Source: Candidatus Poseidonia sp. (GTDB taxonomy: Archaea > Thermoplasmatota > Poseidoniia > Poseidoniales > Poseidoniaceae). From it: a stretch of DNA of 41,304 bases. This document shows, piece after piece, positions 9,108 through 33,957 of the stretch; the first letter of the stretch is position 1, and every line of letters begins with the position of its first letter. The notes beneath the pieces were generated by a model, which had not been told where the DNA came from, did not search any database, and worked only from the letters and a program-made list of their open reading frames with translations. The stretch covers positions 1 to 41,304 of the forward strand of contig JAURDA010000012.1 in assembly GCA_030828165.1 (NCBI GenBank). Reading direction: 5' to 3'. A program made the translations under genes and the position numbers.

Positions 9108-9189
9108 TCGCTCACCGTCTTGGGCAACGCCAAGCCCCTTTTCTAATGCACCACGGCCTCGCATGAAAAGCGTCGTTTTGGTGGACGGC

Positions 9190-11265
9190 TCATACGAGCG
9201 AAATCTTGCTCTGGATGTCCGGCGTCAAGCGATCGATGACCGCCTCCAGCCGTTCGACCAAGCCGGCCTTTTGGTCGTGCTTGATGAGGGCGTACTTCAT
9301 GACTTCATCGAGCGTATCAACCGCCAACACCTCGACCATGTTCTCAAATCGGTCGTCGAGCAAAACGTCCTGCATGTTGGCCCGGGGAACCACGATGGTC
9401 TTGACACCGGAACGTGCGGCGGCTTCGATCTTGGCCGTTACGCCGCCGATGGGGAGCACCTCTCCACGAACCGAGAGCGAACCCGTCATGGCCAAGTCTT
9501 GGCGGATGGGGATATTCTCAAGCGCCGAGATGATGGCGGTAGCGATGGTGATGGAGGCAGAGTCACCGTCAACACCGTGCGTGTCAACGAATTGGATGTG
9601 AATGTCGTAGTCCGAAATGTCCTTGCCGGTCAATTTCTTGATGACGGCACTGACGTTGGTCACGCTTTCTTTGGCGAGGTCCGAGAGACCACCGGTGGCG
9701 TGAATCTTTCCGCCTCCGCCTTGGGAAGGCGTCACCAGGGCTTCGACGGGGAGCATGATGCCGCTGAAATCGGAAAGACCCGAGTTGGCACCGAGAACGG
9801 CCAAGCCGTTGACACGCCCAACGCGTTCGCCGCTGTTGACCAGCATGGCGTAGTCCTGGCGGCGTTCGATCATGCGGTCGGCCACCTGTTGCTCAAGCGG
9901 CTTGGCGATGTTGCGAGCACCCAAGACGTGTTCTGCAGAAGTGAAGGGCGCACCGGCTTCGACGGCAAGGTCTCCTGCGATGCGAACCAGTCCACCGAGT
10001 TCACGAAGGCGCAGAGAGAGTTTTCCTCGGCGACCCGCCCGACGCTGAGCTTCACGGAGAATGATGGCGACGGCACTCTTGTCAAAGTGGGGGATTTCGC
10101 GAACCGTATCCTGGTCTCGGAGCACTTCTTGGGCGATGAAGCGAATCAGGCGACGGCGGTTGCGAGAGGTGTCGGGCATCTCCGAGTTGACGTAGACCTC
10201 GTAGCCGTAGCCACGAATTCTGCTGCGGAGGGCCGGGTGCATGCCTTGGATGGCGTCGAGGTTTCCTGCAGCGATGAGAATGAAATCGCACGGAACAGGT
10301 TCGGTCTTCGTCAGAGCACCGCTGGAGCGCTCTGAGCGGCCGGAGATGGGGAACGCACGGTCCTGCATGGCCGTCAGCAAAGCTTGCTGTTCTTCCAAGC
10401 GCAGGAGGTTGATTTCGTCGATGTAAAGCACGCCTTTGTGGGCACGGTGGATGGCGCCGGGCTCTACACGGTCGTGAGCGGGCGTCTCCATACCGCCCGA
10501 CTGGAACGGGTCGTGACGGACATCACCGAGCAGGGAGCCCGACAGGGTTGCCGTGGCGTCGACGAACGGGGGGAGTTCGTTCAGGTCGTGCTTCACGAGC
10601 ACTTTGGGAATGCGGCTGTCATCGACGGCACCGAGTCGGCTTCGGATGAACATGTACCCGAAGGCGAGCAGGAAGCCACCGAACAGCAAGGTGAACAAGT
10701 CGCCGGACTGGAGAGCGGCGATGAGGAGCAAGAATCCGATGGCGGCAAAAGCGATGAACAGCATGCGTTGGGATTTCTCACGCTGTTGCCGAATCGCTTC
10801 TTTCTGAACCTTGACGATGCGTTCTGCACGTCCGGCGGGCACGGTTCGGACCCTCGGGACGTTTTCATCGTCCTCGTTCGGGTAAACCAGGACGTCTTCA
10901 AGGGCGTCTTTGGGAAGCAAGTCGGTCATGGACTTCGCAAGCATGGACTTGCCCGTTCCGGGGTCGCCGATCATCAGCATGTGGCGGCGCTGTTCCGCCG
11001 CTTTCTTGATGACGACAGAACCGGCTTCTTGACCGATGACTTGGTCGACCAAACGGTCGGGAATGGGGACGTCGGCCGTGGTTTCAAACTCAACCGTGGC
11101 GATCCATTCCTCAACCGAGGAGGAAAGGACCTCGTCAGCACCCGACGGTTCAGGTGACCAAACGGTCACCGTCTCGTCGTTACCGGTCGTCAATGAATCA
11201 AAATCTGCTTCGTCGAGCGGGGCCTCATCGGGCACCTCGGTCGGCTCCGCGGCTTCATCGGTCAC
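9190..11265 (-). CDS. lonB: ATP-dependent protease LonB, membrane-anchored archaeal type
   Basis: LonB unfolds and degrades membrane and soluble proteins at the inner face of the cell membrane. The 691-residue protein has an acidic N-terminal stretch (1-60), then an AAA+ domain with Walker A GDPGTGKS (about 100-107). A two-helix membrane insertion follows (about 160-205, [18 protein letters not shown] then [13 protein letters not shown]), then Walker B VLYIDEIN. The C-terminal protease domain has the Ser in GVDGDSAS and the Lys in [10 protein letters not shown], the Ser-Lys dyad of Lon. It lacks the large N-terminal substrate domain of bacterial LonA, as expected for LonB. The GTG at 11265 is chosen because a strong GAGGAGAGGAG lies just before it. 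Confidence 0.96.
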
Positions 11266-21338: not shown

Positions 21339-22085
21339 ATGGGCGTTGAACGCGTGCAATGGGGTGCAGAAGCGTGGCAGTTCGCTGACCTCCACATGCC
21401 CGACGACCCATCCCCGTTTCAGAAGGACGAGGGCGTGCCTTGTGTCATGCTCATCCACGGTGGCTTTTGGAAAACGAAGTACACCTTTGAGTTGATGCAA
21501 CCCATCGCAGATGACCTCGCTGAAGCGGGCGTCGCCGCATGGAACATCGAATTCAAGCGATGGGAGGAAGGCGAAGAAGGCGTTTGGATGGACACCCTCT
21601 CCGACGTGTTGCGGGCATGGGGACAGTTGGCGTTGCTCCCGGGCATCGATGTTACCCGCTCGATGGTCATGGGGCATTCCGCCGGTGGCCAACTGGCGCT
21701 CTTGATGAGTGCGAAAGCCGAGCGCCGACCCTGGTTGGCGATTGCTCAAGCACCCTTGACGGACCTCATTGGCGCCGACCGTGCACGTCTCTCCGACGAG
21801 GGGGATGCTGTCCGAAAGTGGATCGGTTGCTCGCCCGAAGACAACGAAACCCTCTGGCGCCAACTCAACCCGGTGGACCACCCGCCGCAAACCAGCGTGC
21901 TGCTCTTCCACGGCGAGCACGACGTCGATGTTCCCCTTGAGCAATCGGAAACCTATGCGAGGGTGATGAAGGCCAAGGGCGCGGACGTCCAGAAGGTTTG
22001 GCTGCCCGGTGACCATTACGACATCATCGACGTCGCCTCCGACGATTGGTTGGTTCAACTCAACACCGTGCTCGATTGGTTGTAA
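21339..22085 (+). CDS. Alpha/beta hydrolase (HGG, GHSAGG type)
   Basis: The 248-residue cytosolic protein has the oxyanion-hole motif HGGFW (40-44) and the nucleophile elbow GHSAGG (112-117, Ser114). The likely acid is in HGEHDVDVP (Asp195) and His226 is in LPGDHYD, so the triad looks complete. This layout is shared by hormone-sensitive-lipase-like carboxylesterases and by arylformamidases such as yeast and animal kynurenine formamidase. The substrate is not readable. The start at 21339 is the ATG nearest the conserved region; an in-frame GTG lies at 21318. It follows aspS by 54 bases and precedes an SDR gene by 37 bases on the same strand. A formamidase role would fit the aminophenol-type genes downstream but is inference. 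Confidence 0.85.
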   Translation: MGVERVQWGAEAWQFADLHMPDDPSPFQKDEGVPCVMLIHGGFWKTKYTFELMQPIADDLAEAGVAAWNIEFKRWEEGEEGVWMDTLSDVLRAWGQLALLPGIDVTRSMVMGHSAGGQLALLMSAKAERRPWLAIAQAPLTDLIGADRARLSDEGDAVRKWIGCSPEDNETLWRQLNPVDHPPQTSVLLFHGEHDVDVPLEQSETYARVMKAKGADVQKVWLPGDHYDIIDVASDDWLVQLNTVLDWL

Positions 22086-22122
22086 GGCCAAGGCCTATGA
22101 CCTACGGGGCCATCCCGGCACC

Positions 22123-22938
22123 ATGGACCTGCTCAGCAACGACTTCCCCTACGCTTCATCAGCGCTCAAAGGCAAACACGCCTTCGTCTGCGGGGCGAGC
22201 AAGGGCATCGGTGAAGCGACGGCCAAAATGCTGGCAAAAGCGGGCGCCAACGTCACCGTTTGCGCACGAAACGGGGCGGCGCTTACCGAACTGTGCGCAA
22301 CCCTCTCCACCCTCGGTGACGGAAGGCATCAGGCCTTGATGCTCGATTTGGAAGACACCGAGAGCATCGGGCCTGCCTTTGCCTCGGCCACGGAAGCCCT
22401 CGGACCGGTTCACGTGCTCATCAACAACGCAGGTGGCCCTCCGGGTGGACCGCTCTTGGGCAACGAGGTCACCGACTTTGAGGCCCCATTCAAGCGCCAT
22501 CTTCACGCCGCTCACACCCTCGTGAAGGCCGCAATCCCCGGCATGGAAGCCGAAGGATTCGGACGCATCGTCCAAATCATTTCGACCTCGGTGAAAGAGC
22601 CCATTCCGAACATCGGTCTTTCCAACACGTTGCGAGGCGCGATGGCGTCGTGGGCGAAATCCTTGTCCAACGAATTGCCGCCGTGCGTGACGATCAACAA
22701 CGTCCTTCCAGGCTTCACCGACACCGAACGCTTGGGCAACCTTTCCGCATCGATTCAAGAGCGAACGGGCAAGTCCGCTGACGATGTTCGAAGCGGTTGG
22801 CTGAACCAGGTTCCCATCGGCCGTCTCATCAACCCGCTGGAAACCGCCAGCGCCATCACCTTCCTTTGCCTGCCCGCCTCGGGCGGCATCCGTGGCGTGA
22901 GCCTCGCCGTTGACGGCGGCCGACTTCGCTCGATTTGA
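22123..22938 (+). CDS. Short-chain dehydrogenase/reductase with non-standard active site
   Basis: The 271-residue protein has the Rossmann cofactor motif GASKGIG (24-30), NNAGG (101-105) and a C-terminal VDGG as in FabG-like SDRs. The usual YxxxK catalytic pair is missing: counting from Ser154, the expected Tyr is Ser167 and the Lys is Arg171 (in LSNTLRGAM). A subset of FabG-like SDRs with LSNxLR at this place exists, so the change is not a sequencing error. The reaction is uncertain, and normal Tyr-driven hydride transfer is unlikely. It begins 37 bases after the hydrolase gene and is followed nine bases later by the TPR gene, suggesting one operon. Confidence 0.85.
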   Translation: MDLLSNDFPYASSALKGKHAFVCGASKGIGEATAKMLAKAGANVTVCARNGAALTELCATLSTLGDGRHQALMLDLEDTESIGPAFASATEALGPVHVLINNAGGPPGGPLLGNEVTDFEAPFKRHLHAAHTLVKAAIPGMEAEGFGRIVQIISTSVKEPIPNIGLSNTLRGAMASWAKSLSNELPPCVTINNVLPGFTDTERLGNLSASIQERTGKSADDVRSGWLNQVPIGRLINPLETASAITFLCLPASGGIRGVSLAVDGGRLRSI

Positions 22939-22947
22939 GGTGAGCGC

Positions 22948-23793
22948 ATGGACGGTGAAGTTTCGCCCGAACGGGCCCGCCAAATCCTCGATGTGTTGAC
23001 CTCCGGCGGCTCCATGGACCACATCAACACCTCGCTTGCGCTCCGGTTGATGCCGCTTGCGGAGGAAGTCGGCGAAGCCGAGTTGGTGGAACGCCTGATC
23101 GACCACGCAACCACGGTGGCAACGAACGATGAGGAGCGGGGTTGGGCCCGATTTGAAGGGTTGAAACGGATGAACGCCAAGGTGGAAAGTTTCCTGGCGC
23201 TCGCCGAAGAAACCGAGGGTCTGGAGGGAGCGCAATCGCTCACCGCCGCCGTTCAACACTACGTCGCCCTGGTCCAAATGTCCGAGGGTCACCTCGACGA
23301 AGCACGGGCTACGGCTCAGCGCGCCCTTCGTTTGCGGTCAACGGTTGAAGACTTTCAGGGCATGGCGTACGGAATGGCCTTGTTGATGAGCATCGCAAAA
23401 CGGCAGCACGACGAGGACACCGCCATCGCCATCGGGACCGAACGGCTTGAATTGCTGACCAAACTCAAGGACGAAGAAGGGCAGATGGAAGCCATCGCTG
23501 ATCTGGCTCACTGTCAGGCGACCATCGGGGAGTTCGGTGCCGCTCAAGACCTGTTCAACCAATCCCTCGAACGAGCTCAAGACCTCGGAAGTCTCTCCGG
23601 CCAACTCGTGGCGCGTTGGGGTCTCGCTGACATCGCTGAAATCCAACAGGACTATGAAACCGCCATGCTCGTCTTGTCCGATTCGCTTCACGAATTCCTC
23701 GCCGTTGACATTCCAGCACCTGCACCGCTTCGGCAGCGGATTCAAGATTTGACCGAACTGAGAAATACGCCCGGCGATGAAGGCTCAGCCTGA
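22948..23793 (+). CDS. TPR-repeat protein
   Basis: The 281-residue, acidic, all-helical protein lacks a signal peptide and membrane helices. The region from about 90 to 255 contains tetratricopeptide-like helix pairs, seen as repeats with small residues at the A-x-x-x-x-G/A packing sites (GHLDEARATAQRALRL, GEFGAAQDLFNQSLERA, QDYETAMLVLSDSL). Such proteins serve as scaffolds or partners; the binding partner is unknown. GAGGTGAG lies just before the ATG and overlaps the stop of the SDR gene region, so it is translated from the same mRNA. It could regulate or assemble the enzymes around it, but the sequence does not show this. Confidence 0.8.
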   Translation: MDGEVSPERARQILDVLTSGGSMDHINTSLALRLMPLAEEVGEAELVERLIDHATTVATNDEERGWARFEGLKRMNAKVESFLALAEETEGLEGAQSLTAAVQHYVALVQMSEGHLDEARATAQRALRLRSTVEDFQGMAYGMALLMSIAKRQHDEDTAIAIGTERLELLTKLKDEEGQMEAIADLAHCQATIGEFGAAQDLFNQSLERAQDLGSLSGQLVARWGLADIAEIQQDYETAMLVLSDSLHEFLAVDIPAPAPLRQRIQDLTELRNTPGDEGSA

Positions 23794-23846
23794 GGGGCCA
23801 TACCCATTATGAGCCATGGCGGCGTGGCGTGAATCGGTGCGTGGTT

Positions 23847-25097
23847 ATGGAGCATGACATCTTCTTCTCCATTTCCCAAACCCCCGATGAAAACGGGGTC
23901 ATCCCCGATGAAGCCACCATGCTTCGCAACTACTTCCAACAGTTGACATGCGCTGACGAACTCGGTTTCAAAACGGGATGGATTGCGCAAGCTCACCTTT
24001 CAACGGAGACGCAAAAGAGCAACCTTCGACCGGTTGTACCGCACTGGAAGGGTGAAGTCGGCCTCTGCACGGATTTTCCACAACTTGCCTTGGAATCGTT
24101 TCGCCGCACAACAAACATCGAAATCGGCAGTGCGGTCATCTCCATCCTCGCCTCGGGTGGGCCGATTGCCCAAGCCGAACGCATCGCCAACGTGCTCAGC
24201 CTGCACGGTTTGGAGGCGACCGAACAGCGCCGGCTTCACGTCGGTTTTTCCGCCGGCCGCTTTGAGTTCATGGCGCGCCCGTACGGCGTCGTGCCGAGGA
24301 ACGCCGTTGAAGAGGCGGCTTGGCCCGCTCTTCGGGGGCAAATTTTCATGGAAGCCGCCGAGATTTTCCTTCGTTTGCTGCGTGGCGATGTCATCAATTC
24401 CGAGTTGATTCGGCCCACCGTGCTCACCAGGGACAACTTCCGAAGCGACGAGGATTGGTTGGCCGTGCAAGAGGCAGCGGTGGAGTTTGAGGCGCTCGAT
24501 CACCGCCCGGAGTCGATCGCCATCCCCTCTCGGTACGTGTTTGAGGACCTGAAAATCGTGCCAAGCCATTTCCGAAGAGAACTGCTCGGCTTGGTGGCGG
24601 GAACCCACGACCCGAAGGCCCAGACCTTCGTCAACAGCATTCTTCCCGTCAAGGTGTTCAACCTCTCCATCACGTCGCCCGAAATCATCGACGCCACACA
24701 CGAGCGCATGGCCGAAGTGTACCATGCCGACGGCGGTGAATGGAAGCGTTCCGACATGCCCCGAACGAGTTTTGTTTTCCTCAACGATGAGGCGGGGCTC
24801 ACACCGGGGGAACAATCGTTGGCTGCCCAGGAAGAGGCCCAGCGCGCCCTGAGCGCATACTGGAACGCCCTCGAAGGCACCATCGACCCCGACAAAGTGA
24901 ACCGGGCGGCCGACAACGCCCTCATCGGCAACGTTGAGGAAGTGGCGATGCAGATGGTTGAGCGCTTCCACGCCGAGGACCGCATCATGGCGTGGTTTGA
25001 CTTCTTCAACCACGATTCGGAGCGGGTTTGTCGAAACATGACGGCCTATATGGAGCGAGTTGTTCCCCGCGTTGAAGCCCTCTTGGGGAGGTCGTGA
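23847..25097 (+). CDS. Luciferase-like (LLM class) flavin-dependent monooxygenase
   Basis: The 416-residue protein belongs to the bacterial luciferase-like monooxygenase superfamily, which uses reduced flavin supplied by a partner reductase. Family features are the start DIFFSISQTP, the strand ending in GWIAQAHL, the segment IGSAVISILASGGPIAQAERIANVLSL (40-130 region) and the loop RRLHVGFSAGRFEFMARPYG. The substrate cannot be assigned; members oxidise aldehydes, sulfonates, amines and aromatic or heterocyclic compounds. I chose the ATG at 23847; GTG codons upstream are in frame. The stop is separated from the start of the asparaginase-type gene by one base, so the two are translationally coupled. 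It may feed the downstream pathway, but no evidence links it directly. Confidence 0.85.
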   Translation: MEHDIFFSISQTPDENGVIPDEATMLRNYFQQLTCADELGFKTGWIAQAHLSTETQKSNLRPVVPHWKGEVGLCTDFPQLALESFRRTTNIEIGSAVISILASGGPIAQAERIANVLSLHGLEATEQRRLHVGFSAGRFEFMARPYGVVPRNAVEEAAWPALRGQIFMEAAEIFLRLLRGDVINSELIRPTVLTRDNFRSDEDWLAVQEAAVEFEALDHRPESIAIPSRYVFEDLKIVPSHFRRELLGLVAGTHDPKAQTFVNSILPVKVFNLSITSPEIIDATHERMAEVYHADGGEWKRSDMPRTSFVFLNDEAGLTPGEQSLAAQEEAQRALSAYWNALEGTIDPDKVNRAADNALIGNVEEVAMQMVERFHAEDRIMAWFDFFNHDSERVCRNMTAYMERVVPRVEALLGRS

Positions 25098-25098
25098 G

Positions 25099-26217
25099 AT
25101 GGGCATCCATCACGACACCTACTCCGCCGTTCAACCCGGAAAACCCGGTTCGGCCATGTATCCGTCCTCACCGCTTGGCGAGCAGGTGGAAGGCATCCCC
25201 ACGGGACGGGAGGTGGCTTGGGAGCCGCTGGTGGACTACCGACGAAACGGCGTATCGGAAACCACCATTCACGGAGCCGTCGCTTGGGCTCACGGTGACG
25301 AAGTGATCCATTCCTTTGGAGGCAACGTCCTCTGCTACGGTCGTTCGATGATGAAGCCCTTCATGCTCAAGGCGTTCACGGAAGAACTCGCCGATTGTTC
25401 CTGGGAGCAGAAAGCCATCGCCGTGGCCTCTCACAACGGAGACACGGAACACGTTGCTGCCGCTCAGTCGCTCTTGAACGAATCCGAATGGCCCCTCATG
25501 CTGACGCCGCTCGATGTCCCGCTGATTCAATTTGGACGGCAGGTGCGGCGGCCTCGTCGTTGGTTCCACACCTGCTCGGGTGAACACGCCGCCATCCTCC
25601 GAGGATGCCGCATGAAGGGTTGGAACCGTGCGGGATACACCCTGCCCACCCACGAGGTGTTCCACGCTTACATGGAGCAATTGCGCACCTATCTCGGTGA
25701 AGATTGGAAGCCGTTGCGCATCGCCAAGGACGGATGCGGCCTGCCGACCGTCTCGAACACCGTTTCCGAACTTGCGCAAATCTATGCCGGGCTCGTCCGT
25801 GACAAAGACGACGACTGGATTTGGGAGGCCATGGTTCGCCATCCTGACCTCGTTGGAGGATTCAACCGACTCGATTCAACGGTGCTCAAGGCAGGCGAAG
25901 GACGGGTCATCGCCAAAGAAGGCGCGGACGGCTTGCTCGGCATGGCCATCGAACATCCCGACTACCCCAAAGGCTTGGGCATCGTGGTCAAAATTGCCCA
26001 CGGATGGAACTCGCAGGCTACGTGGTACGTCGCCCGAGCCCTCCTTGGGGTCTTGGGCATCAACCTGCGGAACCCGTACCCCTTGCACCGGCAAAAAGCC
26101 TTCATCGTACCGGGTATTGTGCCCGAAGCGTATCTTGACGTCTTGGAAACCGTGCCGACGTGGGACGAATGGGACCCCGATCGGGACCGCTGGCATTTTG
26201 ACCCCGAGGTGAACTGA
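25099..26217 (+). CDS. Asparaginase-II-type amidohydrolase (PF06089 family)
   Basis: The 372-residue protein matches the thermolabile (Rhizobium etli-type) L-asparaginase II family, unrelated to the E. coli enzyme. The known two Ser-Lys pairs are visible: S83-x-x-K86 (RSMMKP), and S111 (ASHNGD) with K273 (AKEGADG). Of the zinc-binding residues, C159 (HTCSGEH) and C213 (DGCGLP) are present, but the expected Lys is Glu162. That change may alter the metal site or specificity. In this context the substrate could be an amide other than asparagine. GGGGAGG precedes the ATG, which follows the previous stop by one base. The stop TGA shares its A with the ATG of the aldehyde dehydrogenase gene. Confidence 0.85.
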   Translation: MGIHHDTYSAVQPGKPGSAMYPSSPLGEQVEGIPTGREVAWEPLVDYRRNGVSETTIHGAVAWAHGDEVIHSFGGNVLCYGRSMMKPFMLKAFTEELADCSWEQKAIAVASHNGDTEHVAAAQSLLNESEWPLMLTPLDVPLIQFGRQVRRPRRWFHTCSGEHAAILRGCRMKGWNRAGYTLPTHEVFHAYMEQLRTYLGEDWKPLRIAKDGCGLPTVSNTVSELAQIYAGLVRDKDDDWIWEAMVRHPDLVGGFNRLDSTVLKAGEGRVIAKEGADGLLGMAIEHPDYPKGLGIVVKIAHGWNSQATWYVARALLGVLGINLRNPYPLHRQKAFIVPGIVPEAYLDVLETVPTWDEWDPDRDRWHFDPEVN

Positions 26218-27665
26218 TGGAGCCCGTCCGCAACTACATCAACGGGGCCTTTGTTGACGCCGTTTCGGGCCAAACGTTGGACACCGTCAACCCGGCGACC
26301 AACACCGTCATCACCGCCGTTCCCCGTTCACAGGCTGTCGATGTGAAACACGCCACAGAGGCGGCCAAAGCAGCGGCGACGGCTTGGGGCGCAACGACGA
26401 TGGTGGAGCGCATCGCTTGGTTGGAACGCATCGCTGACGCCTTGGAGGCAGAAGCCGAAACCATCGCCCAACTCGAAAGCCTTGACACCGGCAAACCGAT
26501 TTCGCTGGCTCGTCGTGTGGACGCTGCTCGGTCGGTGGCCAACTTCCGATTCTTTGCCGACCATGCCAAAGGTCACCAAGACCCTACGTTTTCAGATCAC
26601 GGAGCCGTGAACCACGTGCATCGCTCACCGGTGGGCGTGGTGGGGCTCATCACCCCGTGGAACCTTCCGCTCTATTTGCTCTCGTGGAAAGTGGCCCCAG
26701 CCTTGTTGATGGGCAACACCATCGTCGCCAAGCCGTCGGAACTCACACCGCTTACGGCAGACTTTCTCGCCAAAACCGTTCACGCCCTGGGCCTGCCCGC
26801 CGGCGTGTTCAACCTCGTTCACGGCTACGGCCCGGAGGTTGGTCAAGCCATTGTCGAGCATCCCGACATCCGCGGCATCTCGTTCACCGGAGGAACCGCA
26901 ACAGGACGATTGGTGGCGGCGACCGCTGCACCCATGTTCAAGAAACTCTCCCTTGAACTGGGCGGGAAAAACGCCACGGTGGTACTCGATGATGCTCCAC
27001 TCGACGACATCATGGAGGGTCTGGTGCGTGCGTCCTTCACCAATTCAGGGCAGGTCTGTCTGTGCGGGTCCCGCATTTTGGTGGATGAAACGATTTACGA
27101 CACCTTCGCTGAAAAATTCATCGCCAAAGTGGAGGAACTTCGTTTGGGAGACCCGCAAGACGAGGCGACCCAAATGGGCACGGTCATCTCCCAAGACCAC
27201 AAGGCCAAGGTGGAATCCTACATTCGCCTCGGCATCGAAGAGGGCGGCACCGTGCTCACCGGAGGTTTGAGCGAACTGGCTCCTGTACCCGGCGTTCCCT
27301 CCGACGGTGCTTTCCTTCGCCCAACCGTTCTAGCCGGTCTTTCCGCATCCTGCCGCACGGCCACCGAGGAAATCTTCGGCCCCGTCGTGACCTTGCATTC
27401 CTTCGCCAGCGAGGACGAGGCGGTGGAGATGGCGAACCTTACGGAATACGGCCTGGCCGGCTCGGTTTGGACCGCTGACATCGAGCGAGGTCATGCGTTT
27501 GCAAAACGGATGGAAACGGGGATTGTTTGGGTGAACACCTGGTTGAACCGTGACTTGCGTACGCCCTTTGGTGGGGTCAAGCAGTCCGGCGTTGGTCGGG
27601 AAGGCGGTGACTGGTCGATGGCGTTCTTCTCGGAGATGACCAACGTGTGCATTCAACAACCTTGA
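26217..27665 (+). CDS. Aldehyde dehydrogenase, 2-aminomuconic/2-hydroxymuconic semialdehyde type
   Basis: The 482-residue cytosolic NAD(P)+-dependent enzyme has all ALDH catalytic features: N149 (PWNL), K172 (KPSE), the FTGG cofactor loop (223-226), general base E247 (LELGGK) and nucleophile C281 (SGQVC). Near the end, WLNRDLRTPFGGVKQSG and then GREGG match the form found in AmnC/DmpC-like semialdehyde dehydrogenases of meta-cleavage pathways and in ALDH8. Such enzymes oxidise the ring-opened semialdehyde to aminomuconate or oxalocrotonate. The start shares one base with the previous stop. The LigB dioxygenase genes lie 2.2 kb downstream, which supports this reading over a general betaine/aldehyde role. 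I am sure of the family and fairly sure of the subtype. Confidence 0.88.
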   Translation: MEPVRNYINGAFVDAVSGQTLDTVNPATNTVITAVPRSQAVDVKHATEAAKAAATAWGATTMVERIAWLERIADALEAEAETIAQLESLDTGKPISLARRVDAARSVANFRFFADHAKGHQDPTFSDHGAVNHVHRSPVGVVGLITPWNLPLYLLSWKVAPALLMGNTIVAKPSELTPLTADFLAKTVHALGLPAGVFNLVHGYGPEVGQAIVEHPDIRGISFTGGTATGRLVAATAAPMFKKLSLELGGKNATVVLDDAPLDDIMEGLVRASFTNSGQVCLCGSRILVDETIYDTFAEKFIAKVEELRLGDPQDEATQMGTVISQDHKAKVESYIRLGIEEGGTVLTGGLSELAPVPGVPSDGAFLRPTVLAGLSASCRTATEEIFGPVVTLHSFASEDEAVEMANLTEYGLAGSVWTADIERGHAFAKRMETGIVWVNTWLNRDLRTPFGGVKQSGVGREGGDWSMAFFSEMTNVCIQQP

Positions 27666-27688
27666 GAACACATCTTCAAAGGCCACCG

Positions 27689-28432
27689 ATGCTTGCTTGG
27701 TGCATGGATGACGAAACGCTCCCGTTGTTCGTCCTCCCCATGGTCCTCTTCCCGGGGGAAACCCAAGAGTTGCGTGTCTTCGAACCCCGCTATCGCCAAA
27801 TGCTCGACACCTGCATCCTCGACGAGCGACCTTTCGGTTTGGTGCTCAACGACCCGTTCGAGCCCACCAACGGTTGGGACGGGCCGCGGCGACACGGTTG
27901 TGAAGCGGTCATCGTTCGCCACGAAACCCGAGGCATGAACCACTTCATTACCGTCGAAGGTGGCCGTCGCTTCTTCATCGAACAGGTGATTGAACCCGCA
28001 CTCCCTCCACTTCACGACCCTGCCCTCGCCGACCTCATTGAAGGCGGCATCGCCCCCGACGTCCACACCTTGCTCGAGCGGGTGCCGGAAGACCATCCGC
28101 ACCAGCGCCTGTACATCTCGGGGAAGGTCCGTTACCTGCCGGAGGAGGGGGTGTTGACCGAGGCCGACCAAACCGTTCTCGAGGGGTATGCGGCGGCGCT
28201 CATACGCCGCGCTGGGAACGGCATGAACGTTGACAGCAACATGCTCGACCACTTGATTGAACGCTTGTGCGACGAGCAGATCAGCGAGGACCGCACCTCG
28301 ATTTACAACATCGCTGCCCTCTGCGTGAACGACCTTGAAGGACGGCAGCAACTGCTCGCTTGCACCACCGCTGAAGAAGCGATGAACGAACTGCAGATGC
28401 AACTCATGGACCTCCACGACGAAGCCGAATGA
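27689..28432 (+). CDS. LON substrate-binding domain protein
   Basis: The 247-residue protein consists of a LON N-terminal-type domain without an AAA or protease part. The start LPLFVLPMVLFPG (11-23) and the following FEPRYRQM and FGLVLND are typical of the LON-SB domain. The C-terminal half (about 110-240) is helical. Stand-alone LON-domain proteins are common, often annotated as 'peptidase S16', and are thought to bind proteins or ligands without cutting them. The LonB in this window lacks this domain, so a partner role is possible but not shown. The start could be the ATG at 27689 or the in-frame ATG at 27704; neither has a strong Shine-Dalgarno site. It follows the ALDH gene by 23 bases. 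Confidence 0.82.
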   Translation: MLAWCMDDETLPLFVLPMVLFPGETQELRVFEPRYRQMLDTCILDERPFGLVLNDPFEPTNGWDGPRRHGCEAVIVRHETRGMNHFITVEGGRRFFIEQVIEPALPPLHDPALADLIEGGIAPDVHTLLERVPEDHPHQRLYISGKVRYLPEEGVLTEADQTVLEGYAAALIRRAGNGMNVDSNMLDHLIERLCDEQISEDRTSIYNIAALCVNDLEGRQQLLACTTAEEAMNELQMQLMDLHDEAE

Positions 28433-28474
28433 GTCGGGCGAGGATTTGAAAACACCATGGACGGTGGAGAAACC

Positions 28475-29296
28475 ATGTCCGTTTACGGCGCAGCCCGGAA
28501 GGTCACGACCCACACCCTCCAGGAGATGAAACGGGCCGGTGAAAAAATCACGATGCTCACGGCTTACGATTACTCGCTGGCCAAACTCGTTGACCAAGCC
28601 GGCGTTGACGTCATTTTGGTGGGCGATTCCGCCTCCAACGTGATGGCCGGTCAAGTCACGACCGTCCCGATGACGCTCGACCACATGATCTACCACGCCC
28701 AGTGCGTGGAACGTGCCGTCGACCGAGCGCTATTGGTGGTTGACATGCCCTTTGGAACATACCAGGGCAACTCGCGTCAAGCCTTGGAGTCCGCCATTCG
28801 AATCATGAAAGAATCGAGCGGCCACGCCGTCAAGTTGGAGGGAGGTGCTGAAATCGTTGAGTCCGTTCAACGAATTTTGACCGCCGGCATCCCCGTCATG
28901 GGTCATTTGGGGTTGACACCTCAATCCATCTACAAATTTGGAACCTATTCCGTTCGAGCCAAGGAGGAGGAAGAAGCCGAGAAACTCATTGCCGATGCAA
29001 AGATACTGGAAGAGGCCGGATGTTTTGCCATCGTGCTCGAAAAAATCCCCCGTGACCTCGCCAAGCGCGTCTCACAGGCCCTCAACATTCCCACCATCGG
29101 CATCGGTGCTGGCCCGGACGTTGACGGCCAAGTGCTGGTCTTGCACGACCTGTTGGGCATCACGATGGACTTCTCACCCCGCTTTTTGCGACGGTATCTC
29201 AACCTGTCCGAGTCGATTGACGGTGCGCTCAAGCAATATTGCGATGATGTCCGCTCAGGGGATTTCCCCAACGACGAAGAATCGTACACGTCGTGA
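28475..29296 (+). CDS. panB: 3-methyl-2-oxobutanoate hydroxymethyltransferase
   Basis: PanB adds a hydroxymethyl group from methylene-tetrahydropterin or -folate to 2-oxoisovalerate, giving ketopantoate for CoA synthesis. The 273-residue protein is a TIM barrel with the expected residues: VGDS (49-52), VDMPFGTY (89-96 with metal-binding Asp90), VKLEGG (Lys120, Glu122), GHLGLTPQ (143-150) and VLEKIP with the catalytic Glu. The length is normal (about 264). I chose the ATG at 28475 because GGTGGAG lies eight bases before it, rather than the ATG at 28457. Its stop TGA runs directly into the convergent TCA of the next gene. Confidence 0.95.
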
Positions 29297-29788
29297 TCAT
29301 CCGAAGAGGTTGAACGCCAACAGCGACCCACCCAAGGCACCAACATTGACGCCGAGTGTGTGCCAGAGAGCCGAGCGAAACGGTGGGAGATGGAATCGCC
29401 ACCATGAGGTGCTCACCCAAATCCACACGACGATGGCCACGTACCCTCCGCAGATCAGAGCCCCGTAGCCCGTCATCCAAACGGCGAGAAAGAAGGTGCT
29501 GAGCACCGAAGCACCGGCGAGGTACTCTTTCCAGCGAGCAGGGTCATGGTCGGTGAGCCATCGATGAAAAAACGGGGAGAGCAGCAACATGAGCAACAAC
29601 GCAGCTTGTACCGGATTGGGAACCTCGTAGGTTAAACGAGGTTGAACGGCCACCTGCCACACCGCTCCGACGCCTGCGCCAAAGAAGGCGGGAAAAACGA
29701 CGTTGTCCCACGTTTCCTTCCACGTTGCCGACGAGGGAAGCGGTGGCGCCTCAACAGAAAGCTCCACGCCGCTGACCTCTTCCTCCAT
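29297..29788 (-). CDS. Hypothetical membrane protein
   Basis: I do not recognise this 163-residue protein. An acidic N-terminal segment (1-25) is followed by about four hydrophobic helices (about 30-50, 60-75, 88-105, 108-125) and a final one near 145-160. Short charged loops such as DHDPARWKEY lie between them. No catalytic or transport motif is visible. It is the only minus-strand gene in the 21-34 kb block, set between panB (end-to-end, no spacer) and the divergent dioxygenase gene. Confidence 0.7.
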   Translation of the reverse strand: MEEEVSGVELSVEAPPLPSSATWKETWDNVVFPAFFGAGVGAVWQVAVQPRLTYEVPNPVQAALLLMLLLSPFFHRWLTDHDPARWKEYLAGASVLSTFFLAVWMTGYGALICGGYVAIVVWIWVSTSWWRFHLPPFRSALWHTLGVNVGALGGSLLAFNLFG

Positions 29789-29856
29789 GATTCGGCGAGA
29801 ACCACACCCTGTTTAGGCCTTGGTGTTGATGGCCGCAAACCCTCAATGCGATGATG

Positions 29857-29863
29857 AATTAAA
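29857..29863 (+). promoter_or_regulatory. TATA box for the dioxygenase operon
   Basis: AATTAAA ends 21 bases before the ATG at 29885. No Shine-Dalgarno site precedes that ATG, so the mRNA is probably leaderless. This would give the two dioxygenase genes their own promoter, separate from the panB-side operon. Confidence 0.6.
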
Positions 29864-29884
29864 CCTCGGCGGATTGCGATAAGC

Positions 29885-30787
29885 ATGGCCAAAGGGCAAA
29901 TTGTTGCAGGATGCCTCGCCCCTCACCCACCGCACCTGGTGTATGCGGAAAACCCGCCCCAAAACGAGCCCGTGGCCGAAGGTGGATGGGAGCAACTCCG
30001 CTGGGGCTACGAACGCCTTCGTGCTTCGCTTGCCGACATCGATTACGACGCCATCGTTCTGCTTTCACCTCACTGGCAGACCTACGTCGGAACCCATTTT
30101 TTGGGTCTGGACCACTTCGAAGGCCTCTCCGTCGACCCCATCTTCCCCAATCTGTTTCGCTACCACTACAACATGAACGTGGACGTTGAACTCGCCAAGG
30201 CGATCCACGACGAGGCTGAAGCCGCAGGATTACCCGTGAAAATGATGGAAAACCCCGACTTCCGAGTCGATTACGGCACCATCACCACGGGCCATTTGTT
30301 CAATCCCGATTGGGACAAGCCCCTCGTCGTGATTTCAAGCAACCGCTCAACGGCGTATTACTCGGTTGAGGTCATGCAGGAAATCATGATCGAATTGGGC
30401 AAAGTGACGCGGAAGGCCATCGAAGCGAGCGGAAAGCGCGTGGTCGTCCTTGCCAGCAATTCGCTCTCCCATCGGCACTTCACCACCGAATCCGAAGTCC
30501 CCGAGGACATGAGCAAAGAACACATCACGAGTCACGCCATGCATCTCTGGGACATGCGAATCATCGATTACATGCGCAGCGGCCAAGCTCAGCGCATCCT
30601 CGACGAGATGCCGGAGTTTACTGAACAGGCCATCGCTGAAAGCGACGGCGGAGGCTTGTCGTGGCTTCTGTCAACCTTGGACGTCCCGGATTACCCCGCC
30701 ATCCTTCACGGATACGGCACCATCATCGGCACGGGCAACGCCGTGGTGGAATGGCCGTGCCACGCCCATGAGGTGAGCGAAGCATGA
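29885..30787 (+). CDS. amnB: 2-aminophenol 1,6-dioxygenase beta (catalytic) subunit-like, LigB family
   Basis: The 300-residue protein is a class III extradiol ring-cleavage dioxygenase that uses Fe(II) and O2. It strongly resembles AmnB: the start reads LAPHPPHLVY and then ENPPQNEP, followed by GGWEQLRWGYE. By position, the iron ligands are His14, His63 (SPHW) and Glu252 (AESDGG), and the acid-base residue is His196 (SLSHRHF), all present. The end GTGNAVVEW is also typical. It should open an aromatic ring next to a hydroxyl/amino pair, giving a muconic semialdehyde. The next gene overlaps it by four bases (ATGA) and encodes the partner subunit. The exact ring substrate (2-aminophenol or a substituted form) is inference. 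Confidence 0.88.
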   Translation: MAKGQIVAGCLAPHPPHLVYAENPPQNEPVAEGGWEQLRWGYERLRASLADIDYDAIVLLSPHWQTYVGTHFLGLDHFEGLSVDPIFPNLFRYHYNMNVDVELAKAIHDEAEAAGLPVKMMENPDFRVDYGTITTGHLFNPDWDKPLVVISSNRSTAYYSVEVMQEIMIELGKVTRKAIEASGKRVVVLASNSLSHRHFTTESEVPEDMSKEHITSHAMHLWDMRIIDYMRSGQAQRILDEMPEFTEQAIAESDGGGLSWLLSTLDVPDYPAILHGYGTIIGTGNAVVEWPCHAHEVSEA

Positions 30788-32205
30788 GTTCTGGAGAAGT
30801 CGTGGCCTCGTTTGTCGTCCCCGTGCACCCTCACACCGTGCTCGCGCCGGGCCAAAATCCCGGCTGGCAGAGGCTCCGAGATGCCCTTGATGAGGCGGCG
30901 CAAACGATTCAAGACCTTGAGGCGGATTTGATCATCGTGTATTCAACGACCTGGCCGTCCATCATTGGCCATCAAATTCAAGCCGACCCAAATCCGGAGT
31001 GGGTGATGGTTGACCACGACTTCCACGATTTGGGTTCCATCCCGTATTCGTTCAACATCGATGCTGAGTTTGCACATGCATGGGACGAAGCCAATCGCCA
31101 ACGCGGGTTGCAAAGCCGATGCGTGAATTACAAGGGGTTCCCCATCGATGTCGGCTCGGTCGTGGCGTTGACGCTGCTGAACCCCGACAACGCCATTCCC
31201 GCGGTCATCGTGTCGTCGAACATGTACGCCAACCGAAGCGAAACCACCGTTCTCGCAAAGTCGTGTTTGGACGTCATCAAGGCCCAAGGACGGCGCGCCG
31301 TGGCCATCACCGCCATGTCGCTCTCCAACCGAATGTTCACGGATTTCATCTCGCCCGACGAGGACAAAATCCATTCCCTCAAGGACGACGAGTGGAACCG
31401 GAAAATTCTGGAGTTCCTTGAGCAGGGGCGTCTTGAGGACGTCGGTCAGCTCTCCCGAACGATCCAACAACAAATCCGTGTCCAAAAAGTGGTGGCCTTC
31501 AAGCCCATGTGGTGGTTGTCGGCGATGAACGGAAACCGAAACGATTTGACCGGCCGCGTGATGGCTTACGAAGCGATCCACGGAGCAGGTGGCGCCGTGG
31601 TCCACCTCGACCCAACATCGAGCGGCGTCGGTGACAAGGAGTACGACGAAGACGACGTTGAGTACTACCACGGCGAACGCGACGTGCTTGACATCGTGGA
31701 GGAAGAGGTGGTCGAAAGCCAACCAACGGTTGACGCCCCCGACGAAACGTCGAACGGCCCGGATTTGTGGGAGCCAACGGAAGCCAAAGGGTCCGTGAAC
31801 ACCACCGCTGCTCCCAAACCTGTTGGAGCGTACCCTCACGCTCGCCGAGTCGGTGACATGTTGTTTCTCTCGGGCGTTGGCCCGCGACAACCCGGAACCA
31901 ACGCCATCCCCGGAGGACCCATTCACGATGAGAACGGAGACCCCCTTCCCTACGACATCAAGGCCCAGACCCACGCTGTCGTCGATAACGTCAAGCGCAT
32001 CGTGGAGGAAGCCGGAGCCAGCATGGATCAGGTGGTTGACGTCACCACGTTCCTCGTTGATATGAAGCGGGATTTCCAAGGATACAACGAAGTTTGGGCC
32101 GAAACGCTCGGCAAGGTGGGCCCCACCCGAACCACCCTTGCCATCGATGCGTTGCCCACACCGATTGCAGTGGAAATGAAGGTCATTGTTCACATGCCAG
32201 AGTGA
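30784..32205 (+). CDS. 2-aminophenol 1,6-dioxygenase alpha-like subunit fused to RidA-family deaminase
   Basis: The 473-residue protein has two domains. Residues 1-275 resemble AmnA, the non-catalytic LigB-family subunit: the iron-ligand positions are Val14 and Thr56, and the acid-base position is Asn182, so it cannot cleave rings itself. An acidic linker (about 280-342) leads to a RidA/YjgF domain (346-473). Its start, GAYPHARRVGDMLFLSG, and the run TTFLVDM, FQGYNEVW, GPTRTT match 2-aminomuconate deaminase (AmnD), with Arg449 and Glu464 at the usual active-site places. The protein would both complete the dioxygenase and deaminate its downstream product. Separate genes encode these in Pseudomonas, so the fusion is notable. 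The start overlaps the previous stop. Confidence 0.88.
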   Translation: MSSGEVVASFVVPVHPHTVLAPGQNPGWQRLRDALDEAAQTIQDLEADLIIVYSTTWPSIIGHQIQADPNPEWVMVDHDFHDLGSIPYSFNIDAEFAHAWDEANRQRGLQSRCVNYKGFPIDVGSVVALTLLNPDNAIPAVIVSSNMYANRSETTVLAKSCLDVIKAQGRRAVAITAMSLSNRMFTDFISPDEDKIHSLKDDEWNRKILEFLEQGRLEDVGQLSRTIQQQIRVQKVVAFKPMWWLSAMNGNRNDLTGRVMAYEAIHGAGGAVVHLDPTSSGVGDKEYDEDDVEYYHGERDVLDIVEEEVVESQPTVDAPDETSNGPDLWEPTEAKGSVNTTAAPKPVGAYPHARRVGDMLFLSGVGPRQPGTNAIPGGPIHDENGDPLPYDIKAQTHAVVDNVKRIVEEAGASMDQVVDVTTFLVDMKRDFQGYNEVWAETLGKVGPTRTTLAIDALPTPIAVEMKVIVHMPE

Positions 32206-32256: not shown

Positions 32257-32313
32257 TACGGAGGTTTGGCACCATTATCAAACGGTATTCTTGTCGGAAA
32301 TCGGGGTGAAAGC

Positions 32314-33957
32314 ATGGCCGTTGAGAACATCATCAAGAGCGTGGCAAAAGGGGACCTCAAATCTGCGGGTGCAGAACTCAAAACAACGTTTGCAAGGACC
32401 ATCGGCCTTGCTGGCGTCGTGATCATCTCGCTCTCGGCCATGTTGCCCGGTATTTTTGTCACGCCGACCTTCGCCGCTGAAATCATGGGACCGGGGATAT
32501 GGTTGGCCTTTTTGCTCGCTGCGTCCGTGGTGCTCCCGGGAGCGGTTTCCAAGGCTGAGCTCTCATCGGGAATGCCGGCAAGCGGGGGCTCGTACGTTTA
32601 CTTGGAGCGAACCTACGGCCCGTTGATTGGAACCATCAGTGGACTGGGTCTTTGGTCATCGTTCCTTCTCAAATCCGCCTTCGCCCTCATCGGTTTTTCG
32701 GCTTACTTCGCCGTAGTGACGGCGTACTTCGACCTCGAATTTAGCATGTACACGCTTTCGTTGTCGGCTTTGGTCCTCATCACGTTCGTCAACATTCTCG
32801 GCGTGTCCAAGGTCAAAGCGGTGCAAACTCCCATTGTGATCGTGACGGTCGCCTTGCTGGCGATCATGTGCATCATGGCCCTTTTCTCGGCCGATTTCGA
32901 CGCCTCCGTTCCCATCGACGGCGCTTTCTCAACCGATTTGTGGACCCTTGCAGAGACCGCAGCGTTCGTTTTCGTCGCCTATGCAGGCGTCACGAAAGTG
33001 GCTGCCATTGGGGGTGAAGTCAAAGACCCGGAAAAGAATCTCCCTGCAGGCATTTTGTTGTCGCTTGCCATCGCCACCGTGATTTATTCGGCTCTGGCCT
33101 TTGCCATGATGGCGGTGCTTCCCAACGGCTGGTGGATGAAGGACGGCGAGGTCATCGAAAACCCAATCTCCGTGTTCGCAGAACACCTCGCAGGCTCTGA
33201 GTTTGGCGTTCTTGTCGCCATCATCTCGGTCTTGACCATGATCTCCATGGCCCTAGCCGGCATTCTCGCCTCTTCCCGGTTTTTGTTCGCCATGTCCAGG
33301 GATAACCTCCTGCCGCAGCCCTTGGAAGAAGTGAACGCTCGATTCGAAACCCCCCATATTCCGATTCTTCTCACAGGCTTAGCCATGGGCCTTGCCATCG
33401 TTTTCGTGCCGCTGAAAGACGTTGTTAAACTCGCATCTGGATTCAAAATCATGATTTTCATGCTGATCAATTCCTGCGTCATCGTTTTGCGCCAAACCAG
33501 CCACGTCCACGACTGGAAGCCGGCCTACAAAGGCCCGCTCTACCCTTACCTCAACATCTGGGGAATCGTTGCCGGGGCGTTCCTTATCTCGCTCATGGGC
33601 TCAAAGGCCTACATTGGTGGAGCCGTGGCCGTGGTGGCAGGCATCTTCACCTACGCACTCTACGGAAGGAAGCACTACGTCGTTCAGCAAGACACGCCCT
33701 TCACCACCTTCCGGCAAATGTTTGGGGTTGCGAGCACCACCGAACACGACCGTCGGGTTGCGGCGTTTCACGCTGCCGATTTCGGCAACAAAAACCACCT
33801 CAACCTTCGTGAATTCCAAAACGCACTCAAAGCCCTTGGTTTCACGTTCTCAAAAGATGAAACTCGGGTCATTTTCCACAAGGCCGACGAGAACGAAGAC
33901 GGTGTCATCGACATTGATGAGTTCTTCAAGAGTTACGAGTCGCTTGAAGAGGAGTAG
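32314..33957 (+). CDS. APC-family amino-acid permease with C-terminal EF-hand pair
   Basis: The 547-residue protein has about 12 membrane helices (about 30-460) of the amino acid-polyamine-organocation family. Family features include GPGIWLAFLLAASVVLPGAVSK around helix 2, MPASGGSYVYLERTYGP after it, GGEVKDPEKNLPAGI, and SRFLFAMSRDNLLP before helix 9. After the last helix there is a cytosolic domain (about 475-547) with two helix-loop-helix EF-hands. The second loop, residues 525-536 (DENEDGVIDIDE), has all calcium-binding positions; the first (489-500) is degenerate. Calcium may therefore control transport, which is unusual for this family. GGGGTGA lies before the chosen ATG. The substrate is unknown. 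It follows the dioxygenase genes and could import their amino-acid precursor. Confidence 0.88.
   Translation: MAVENIIKSVAKGDLKSAGAELKTTFARTIGLAGVVIISLSAMLPGIFVTPTFAAEIMGPGIWLAFLLAASVVLPGAVSKAELSSGMPASGGSYVYLERTYGPLIGTISGLGLWSSFLLKSAFALIGFSAYFAVVTAYFDLEFSMYTLSLSALVLITFVNILGVSKVKAVQTPIVIVTVALLAIMCIMALFSADFDASVPIDGAFSTDLWTLAETAAFVFVAYAGVTKVAAIGGEVKDPEKNLPAGILLSLAIATVIYSALAFAMMAVLPNGWWMKDGEVIENPISVFAEHLAGSEFGVLVAIISVLTMISMALAGILASSRFLFAMSRDNLLPQPLEEVNARFETPHIPILLTGLAMGLAIVFVPLKDVVKLASGFKIMIFMLINSCVIVLRQTSHVHDWKPAYKGPLYPYLNIWGIVAGAFLISLMGSKAYIGGAVAVVAGIFTYALYGRKHYVVQQDTPFTTFRQMFGVASTTEHDRRVAAFHAADFGNKNHLNLREFQNALKALGFTFSKDETRVIFHKADENEDGVIDIDEFFKSYESLEEE

Follow-up and report, generated by a model that had tools for sequence, protein, structure and literature searches.

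A proposed route from tryptophan to 2-aminophenol in marine archaea, involving a luciferase-like monooxygenase and an asparaginase-fold hydrolase

The described systems closest to the gene set analysed here are the amn meta-cleavage of 2-aminophenol in Pseudomonas and Comamonas, and the classical kynurenine pathway of tryptophan degradation. The set lies on contig JAURDA010000012.1 of Candidatus Poseidonia sp. (assembly GCA_030828165.1, 1.79 Mb), of which positions 1 to 41,304 of the forward strand were analysed (hereafter the window, contig C21 in our numbering). With the amn pathway, whose substrate is supplied by nitroarene reduction, it shares AmnB, AmnA, a 2-aminomuconate 6-semialdehyde dehydrogenase (AMSDH) and a RidA protein resembling 2-aminomuconate deaminase. 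It differs in that AmnA and RidA are fused, that no decarboxylase of the DmpH type was found in 30 of 33 genomes, and that the substrate would be produced by tryptophan 2,3-dioxygenase (TDO), a formamidase, a luciferase-like flavin monooxygenase (LLM) and a class-3 L-asparaginase-like hydrolase (AsnII). With the kynurenine pathway it has in common TDO, the formamidase (KynB in bacteria), AMSDH and the deaminase, whereas kynureninase and the HAAO cupin mostly stay under cut-off here, the middle of the pathway being replaced, as we propose, by LLM and AsnII.

These two middle enzymes have relatives of their own. Luciferases and ketolactonases are grouped as type II Baeyer-Villiger monooxygenases (BVMOs) in passages of PMC8706424. 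One type II BVMO, 3,6-diketocamphane monooxygenase (4uwm, 5aec), has a fold like that of LLM, but identity is 12–14%, other LLM classes match equally well or better, and the substrate proposed for LLM is an aryl ketone amino acid. In the degradation of 4-hydroxyacetophenone, an FAD-dependent type I BVMO followed by an esterase yields a phenol; the same logic, in which an aryl ketone becomes an aryl ester and then a phenol, would apply here, with LLM and an asparaginase-fold enzyme instead. Finally, AsnII shares with the class-3 L-asparaginases ReAV and ReAIV the fold and the Ser48-Lys51/Ser80/Lys263 tetrad, but has Glu or Gln in place of Lys138, a partial loss of cysteines, and a sequence block of its own.

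We consider it probable that the set serves to degrade tryptophan through 2-aminophenol, without kynureninase or HAAO. Its central genes are the following:

23847 to 25097, + strand: LLM, a luciferase-like flavin monooxygenase, proposed kynurenine Baeyer-Villiger monooxygenase (AF2 model and fold match)
25099 to 26217, + strand: AsnII, a class-3 L-asparaginase-like hydrolase, proposed to hydrolyse a beta-aspartyl-2-aminophenol adduct (PF06089 and fold)
26217 to 27665, + strand: AmnC, an aldehyde dehydrogenase (ALDH) of the AMSDH type, 482 aa (scores and residues)
29885 to 30787, + strand: AmnB, catalytic beta subunit of 2-aminophenol 1,6-dioxygenase, 300 aa (PDB scores and residues)
30784 to 31638 (domain end approximate), + strand: AmnA, non-catalytic alpha subunit part of a fusion gene (30784–32205, 473 aa)
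31792 (domain start approximate) to 32205, + strand: RidA part of the same fusion gene, an AmnD-like 2-aminomuconate deaminase

For LLM the first ATG was taken as the start, and for AsnII the first ATG that follows the stop of LLM; the ATG of AmnC shares one base with the AsnII stop codon.

The aminophenol half of the set

AmnC, AmnB and AmnA were placed by score, not by family trees. Among 163 PDB matches to AmnC, the seven best were all AMSDHs (487 to 451 bits); the next one reached 436 bits, and betaine-type enzymes at most 376. The nearest NCBIfam model was that of 2-hydroxymuconic semialdehyde dehydrogenase (HMSDH), with 558 bits for a cut-off of 693, and betaine dehydrogenase obtained 478. 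A betaine-type identity was ruled out on these scores. The functional residues of AMSDH given in passages of PMC4286809 are Cys302, Glu268 and the substrate arginines Arg120 and Arg464, and the two arginines were mapped onto AmnC by hand. Residues R105, E247, C281 and R445 of AmnC were found in 98 of 98 aligned rows, and R448 in 96. For these and all other residue counts, sequences were filtered by length, and rows include close relatives as well as some duplicates of one genome.

The two LigB genes (29885–30787 and 30784–32205) overlap by 4 bases. When AmnB was compared to the PDB with phmmer, three beta subunits of 2-aminophenol 1,6-dioxygenase were matched with 374, 353 and 314 bits. The 3,4-dihydroxyphenylacetate (DHPA) 2,3-dioxygenase 8iq8 obtained 43 bits, and an identity of the dihydroxyphenylalanine (DOPA) or protocatechuate type was ruled out on PDB scores. 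The positions that we take, from the 3VSG structure, to be those of the iron ligands are His14, present in 74 of 75 rows (the last one being gapped there), and His63 and Glu252, present in all 75. The AmnA part matched alpha subunits with 144 (3vsg_A), 134 and 129 bits. In the four alpha rows compared, the columns aligned with H63 and E252 never held His or Glu, and the H14 column held His once. AmnA lacks the metal ligands at the aligned positions, as expected of an alpha subunit, which means that the pair makes one catalytic dioxygenase, not two. As for the RidA part, its top PDB match within the family was the 2-aminomuconate deaminase 6izh, with 97 bits, and the next RidA protein had 71. 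No listed NCBIfam model reached its curated cut-off for the ALDH or for either LigB protein. Judged by the PDB comparisons, the first LigB protein is a predicted true AmnB, and the second joins a subunit of the AmnA type to a RidA domain whose nearest relative is 2-aminomuconate deaminase.

These results agree with the original prediction, made from the sequence of the window, insofar as it had placed an ALDH, a LigB pair and a RidA domain here: all are open reading frames on the + strand at the places given, with matches well past anything chance would produce, and their identities follow from the PDB scores. The conservation it had announced for the AmnB His/His/Glu and ALDH Cys/Glu positions was also recovered, in 74 to 75 of 75 and in 98 of 98 rows respectively. 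It had further described a ring-opening LigB pair; the resemblance to AmnB and AmnA stands, but only the first protein would be catalytic.

The arrangement of AmnA and RidA was compared in three tiers of archaeal relatives: the same family (f1), the same order (f2) and the same class (f3, Marine Group III). They are fused in the window, in the other f1 loci and in 4 of the 19 mapped f2 loci, the remaining 15 having them as separate neighbours, and RidA is a gene of its own in the f3 locus L136. In bacteria, 13 of the 20 loci that hold LLM, AsnII, AmnC, AmnB and AmnA have an AmnA reading frame of at least 434 aa, as in the RidA fusion.

LLM, AsnII and their association with tryptophan genes

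No Pfam domain was found in LLM, nor any PDB relative by sequence search. Its AF2 model (pLDDT 88.9) was compared by fold: with Foldseek, the top match had an E value of 2.6e-15, and all 50 matches listed belonged to the LLM superfamily, among them the Agrobacterium monooxygenase 2i7g, bacterial luciferases, RslO1, SfnG, MsuD, RutA and F420 enzymes.

AsnII matches PF06089 with 166 bits and has the fold of the Rhizobium etli asparaginase ReAV, with 23–26% identity in the fold matches. Passages of PMC8602277, from which the residue roles are taken, report Ser48, Lys51, Ser80 and Lys263 as essential in ReAV. The equivalents of these residues, which form two Ser-Lys pairs, are kept in 100 of 100 AsnII rows. 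In the same rows the zinc ligand Lys138 is always replaced, by Glu (88) or Gln (12), and the zinc cysteines Cys135 and Cys189 are both lost in 12. Based on the constancy of the tetrad and of the Lys138 replacement, the hydrolytic machinery of AsnII is predicted to be intact, with a changed metal site. The block QFGRQVRR.RRW is also strongly conserved. The AsnII of the window was aligned with 23 relatives, of which 18 are bacterial, and shares 68–75% identity with them.

To see how the genes are distributed, 59 Poseidoniales relatives, 19 of which are at least 90% complete, were scanned for AmnB, LLM, TDO, kynureninase and HAAO. AmnB was found in 56 of them, LLM in 57 and TDO in 55; for the 19 most complete genomes, the figures are 19, 19 and 17. 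The TDO gene of the Poseidonia genome itself lies away from the window (C40:52677-53690). Kynureninase exceeded its cut-off in 1 of the 59 genomes, and in none of 25 genomes holding LLM and AsnII (24 bacterial, 1 archaeal); the HAAO cupin did so in 2 of the 59, one of them with 25.5 bits for a cut-off of 25. On this census, the gene set is a core trait of Poseidoniales. Across the phylum, LLM was detected in 131 of the 389 genomes drawn, namely members of the order, 5 of 8 f3 genomes, and two distant genomes, G083 and G115.

Gene order was then mapped in 41 archaeal loci (the window and 40 fetched loci, selected for holding AmnB). All 41 contain AmnA, 35 have panB and 31 an APC permease; AsnII and AmnC were each present in 24, and LLM in 23. 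Many contigs stop inside the cluster. In f2, the upstream and ring-cleavage halves are found together in 5 of the 19 mapped loci. Nine f2 loci were chosen for LLM: in all nine, LLM, AsnII and AmnC adjoin, a gene called d21 lies upstream, and a short-chain dehydrogenase (SDR) is present. Five f3 loci chosen in the same way have a single run TDO-SDR-LLM-AsnII-AmnC-AmnB-AmnA-RidA-d21, complete in L136, L137 and L138 and truncated at the end of the contig in L135 and L139; in L136, AmnC and AmnB are separated by an extra hydrolase gene. In G115, distant in the phylum, a TDO-like gene (40% over 120 aa) is upstream of LLM-AsnII-AmnC-AmnB-AmnA-RidA-KynB-SDR, and G083 has SDR-LLM-AsnII-AmnC-AmnB-AmnA-RidA.

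For bacteria, an LLM alignment was searched against a named genome collection. It matched 432 relatives, and the analysis covers the best 80, ranked by their match to the Streptomyces clavuligerus protein. The bacterial counts describe these 80 only; 49 of them are bacterial by title, and neighbours were counted in the sequence fetched around LLM, about 21 kb at most. They come from Planctomycetota, Myxococcota and other 'Deltaproteobacteria', 'Proteobacteria', Acidobacteriota, Latescibacterota, Krumholzibacteriota, a Silvanigrellales bin, Actinomycetota and unplaced bins. Around LLM, SDR was found in 37 of the 49 loci, AmnC in 34, AsnII in 32, AmnB in 21, AmnA in 20, TDO in 18 and KynB in 17. 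Twenty loci hold LLM, AsnII, AmnC, AmnB and AmnA together, and 19 of these also have TDO or KynB (8 have both), the exception, L172, stopping just past AmnA at a contig end. All eight genes (TDO, SDR, LLM, AsnII, AmnC, AmnB, AmnA, KynB) are present in 7 loci (L143, L144, L154, L162, L168, L194 and L217). From these shared gene runs, we hold it very probable that the set is linked to tryptophan.

AsnII follows LLM beyond the immediate neighbourhood as well. Of the 17 bacterial LLM loci without AsnII nearby, 10 come from genomes that carry a 67–77% identical AsnII elsewhere. Among 11 genomes outside the class that lack LLM, no AsnII orthologue was found, and 3 hold kin of 30–35% identity. The S. 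clavuligerus LLM (49% identity) has no other queried gene within 15 kb, and four matches on Rhizobium plasmids span just 34% of LLM.

A quick tree of the LLM proteins longer than 360 aa and free of stops (91 rows, midpoint root) groups the 38 rows of Marine Groups II and III in one set (SH-aLRT 99), placed among bacteria and including neither G115 nor G083. This position suggests that the ancestor of Marine Groups II and III likely obtained the gene set from bacteria, and that it entered the other archaea separately. In the same tree, the LLM of L157, titled as a Klebsiella pneumoniae metagenome bin, groups with that of L151, an unrelated proteobacterial bin; L157 is probably mislabelled or mixed.

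A proposed route and its rivals

We propose the following steps. TDO would convert tryptophan to N-formylkynurenine (step 1), its gene being elsewhere in the Poseidonia genome and beside the set in relatives. A deformylase would then give L-kynurenine (step 2): KynB in bacteria, a hydrolase with an HGGFW motif in f1, and perhaps d21 in the other archaeal families. In step 3, LLM, with reduced FMN and O2, would perform a Baeyer-Villiger reaction with aryl migration, inserting an oxygen between the ring and the carbonyl to form the beta-(2-aminophenyl) ester of L-aspartate. Esters with an ortho-aminophenyl group should tend to isomerise to amides, and this one would readily rearrange into N4-(2-hydroxyphenyl)-L-asparagine, a substituted asparagine. 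AsnII, as a Ser-Lys hydrolase, would cut the beta-aspartyl bond (step 4), releasing L-aspartate and 2-aminophenol, the substrate of AmnBA. In step 5, AmnBA would open 2-aminophenol to 2-aminomuconate 6-semialdehyde, AmnC would oxidise it, and RidA would deaminate 2-aminomuconate to 4-oxalocrotonate. The carbon balance down to the ring would be formate, aspartate and 2-aminophenol, and neither kynurenine 3-monooxygenase (KMO) nor ACMSD would be needed.

What the sequences show is which enzymes would carry out steps 1 and 5, and that the genes are linked; the substrates and chemistry of LLM and AsnII, the archaeal deformylases and all that follows 4-oxalocrotonate are what we infer. We regard the Baeyer-Villiger and asparaginase-fold chemistry, as written, as fairly probable. 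Steps 3 and 4 would explain the place of LLM and an 'asparaginase' between TDO and the genes for aminophenol cleavage, as well as the lack of kynureninase and HAAO. The original prediction had considered a tryptophan/kynurenine route without the HAAO cupin, which fits, but had overlooked the upstream genes (21342–26217) and the missing kynureninase. We lean slightly towards a still broader statement: that this is a new pathway, core to Marine Groups II and III and present here and there in many bacterial phyla, in which a luciferase-family BVMO replaces KMO and kynureninase, an asparaginase-fold enzyme splits an N-aryl-asparagine or aryl ester, and parts are also played by a non-canonical SDR and, in archaea, by an N-formylkynurenine deformylase that has gone unrecognised. 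In the open-licence text of PMC, a scope that leaves aside preprints and most subscription papers, we found no account of a Baeyer-Villiger step on kynurenine, of an asparaginase-like enzyme in this role, or of the set in Marine Group II.

If true, this would add a new branch to one of the best-studied amino acid pathways, and give functions to three blank or misnamed protein families (LLM, the 'asparaginase' and the SDR). Marine Group II is among the most abundant planktonic archaea, and we know of no pure-culture physiology for it. A core trait of this kind would change the view of how marine microbes feed on protein, including tryptophan from dissolved protein, and 2-aminophenol, a reactive intermediate, would be a normal metabolite of the surface ocean.

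Several results weigh against the proposal. Regarding LLM, 3,6-diketocamphane monooxygenase only appears at rank 21 of the fold matches; TM scores normalised by query length are 0.46–0.64 over the 50 matches listed, with 11–17% identity, and these cover many reaction classes, including sulfone and sulfonate monooxygenases. As modelled, the fold thus allows a Baeyer-Villiger reaction and does not favour it. No flavin reductase was identified for LLM. Confidence in the AsnII model is moderate (pLDDT 76.7), and the pairing of AsnII with LLM is imperfect: 7 of the 17 genomes mentioned above are devoid of an AsnII orthologue (3 actinobacteria, 2 Planctomycetota, 1 unplaced bin and 1 deltaproteobacterium), and AsnII is present in 3 of the 7 members of the class for which no LLM was found (G116, G131 and a fragment in G020), perhaps because the assemblies are incomplete. 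The SDR accompanies the set, yet has no place in the scheme.

The census of classical enzymes has its own weak points. Another 23 relatives have matches to the kynureninase model under cut-off, as do 6 of the 25 operon genomes; we tentatively read them as other class V (generic) aminotransferases. The HAAO search was positive in 0 of 14 control genomes, so that the sole sign that it works is its 162-bit match in the Thalassarchaeaceae genome G041. This genome has kynureninase (C29:6106-7323, 426 bits) and HAAO (C44:106547-106987) together with the LLM set, which may reflect a second route or foreign DNA. The profile PF01494, used as a proxy for KMO, matched 59 of 59 genomes and 14 of 14 controls, and is too broad to judge KMO. 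As for the lower genes, which the original prediction had noted as missing from the window, the search concerned the DmpH 4-oxalocrotonate decarboxylase (TIGR03218): of the genomes bearing the set, none of the 8 archaeal ones and 3 of the 25 bacterial ones gave a match, one of them over cut-off. A DmpH-like gene is directly upstream of SDR-LLM in the myxobacterial locus L185, and PF01557 matched 52 of the 59 genomes, once per genome.

A rival reading is a tryptophan route through 3-hydroxyanthranilate, in which LLM substitutes for KMO, a replacement of kynureninase has gone unrecognised, AmnBA acts as HAAO, and an unrecognised decarboxylase leads to 2-aminomuconate semialdehyde. Such a route would account for the link with TDO and KynB using textbook intermediates only, and FAD-monooxygenase-type proteins are at hand in all 59 genomes; the absence of ACMSD is not established, as no search for it was made. 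Yet it requires two or three unseen enzymes, leaves the conserved AsnII without a substrate, and sits poorly with AmnB being nearest to 2-aminophenol enzymes, whose substrate has no carboxylate. We therefore disfavour it as unlikely.

It is equally unlikely, in our opinion, that LLM and AsnII reach 2-aminophenol by some other chemistry on kynurenine or N-formylkynurenine, for instance another flavin oxygenation followed by amide hydrolysis. The fold family does catalyse many oxygenations, and d21, of formyltransferase fold, is near LLM in 31 of 38 archaeal loci, but no alternative single oxygenation is apparent that would yield a beta-aspartyl group and 2-aminophenol.

A biosynthetic role, towards picolinate- or quinolinate-type compounds or a natural product, has very little probability for the set as a whole. 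It draws on actinobacterial LLMs without AsnII, which adjoin TDO and a methyltransferase-like gene (L142) or lie near trpB-like genes (L141, L183), labels partly given by eye; against it, the semialdehyde that has to cyclise would be lost to the deaminase and to AmnC, which is found in 34 of 49 bacterial loci and in 24 of the 41 archaeal ones mapped. The use of environmental aminophenols or aromatic amines unconnected to tryptophan, to which the original prediction had given some weight and which the AmnABCD-type enzyme identities do support, is just as improbable and was rejected, since the set belongs to the core of the order and shares gene runs with TDO and kynurenine formamidase (KynB) in archaea and bacteria.

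Accompanying genes

Four further genes of the window surround or interrupt the set:

21342 to 22085, + strand: alpha/beta hydrolase of about 247 aa, candidate N-formylkynurenine formamidase in f1 (HGGFW and GHSAGG motifs; BD-FAE/Peptidase_S9/Abhydrolase_3)
22123 to 22938, + strand: non-canonical SDR, adjoining or near LLM in most clusters (SDR matches)
22948 to 23793, + strand: TPR protein between SDR and LLM in f1 loci, probably outside the pathway
32266 to 33957, + strand: APC amino-acid permease, putative importer, carrying an EF-hand pair at its C terminus (AA_permease_2 132 bits, EF-hand_7 45 bits)

The HGGFW motif, which to our mind resembles that of eukaryotic kynurenine formamidases, is present in 17 of 18 fetched orthologues of the hydrolase, the remaining one being a 170-aa fragment. 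Four PDB matches were obtained, the best being a carboxylesterase (66 bits), and no kynurenine formamidase is among them. The formyltransferase-fold protein d21, which carries N.HP..LP, occurs in f2 and f3 loci (for example L136:2845-3561 and L111:6135-6989). Perhaps the HGGFW hydrolase is the deformylase in f1 and d21 that of f2 and f3, unless d21 transfers the formyl group. The bacterial KynB representative matches arylformamidase (TIGR03035) with 202 bits, slightly under the cut-off of 223.

In the SDR, the catalytic YxxxK was found in 0 of 102 rows (a count for which rows from named loci passed an extra filter of 45% identity), and an invariant S.S..EP....G..N..R stands there instead. Ordinary carbonyl reduction by this protein is doubtful because of the missing YxxxK. 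A 4-oxalocrotonate or 2-aminomuconate reductase leading towards 2-oxoadipate is no more than a guess, given the lost motif and the DmpH-like neighbour in L185.

A few observations concern neighbours of the set. In the acidobacterial locus L181, an aromatic amino-acid hydroxylase gene (8492–9427) is inserted between AsnII and AmnC. Among the actinobacterial LLM relatives without AsnII, that of L142 (8203–11248) is beside TDO, and those of L141 and L183 are near trpB or tryptophan-synthase-like genes, by eye; these LLMs may have a biosynthetic or natural-product use. In the window, panB is located at 28457–29296, and it is near the set in 35 of the 41 mapped loci. Finally, the EF-hand fusion of the permease is, to our knowledge, rare for an archaeal permease.

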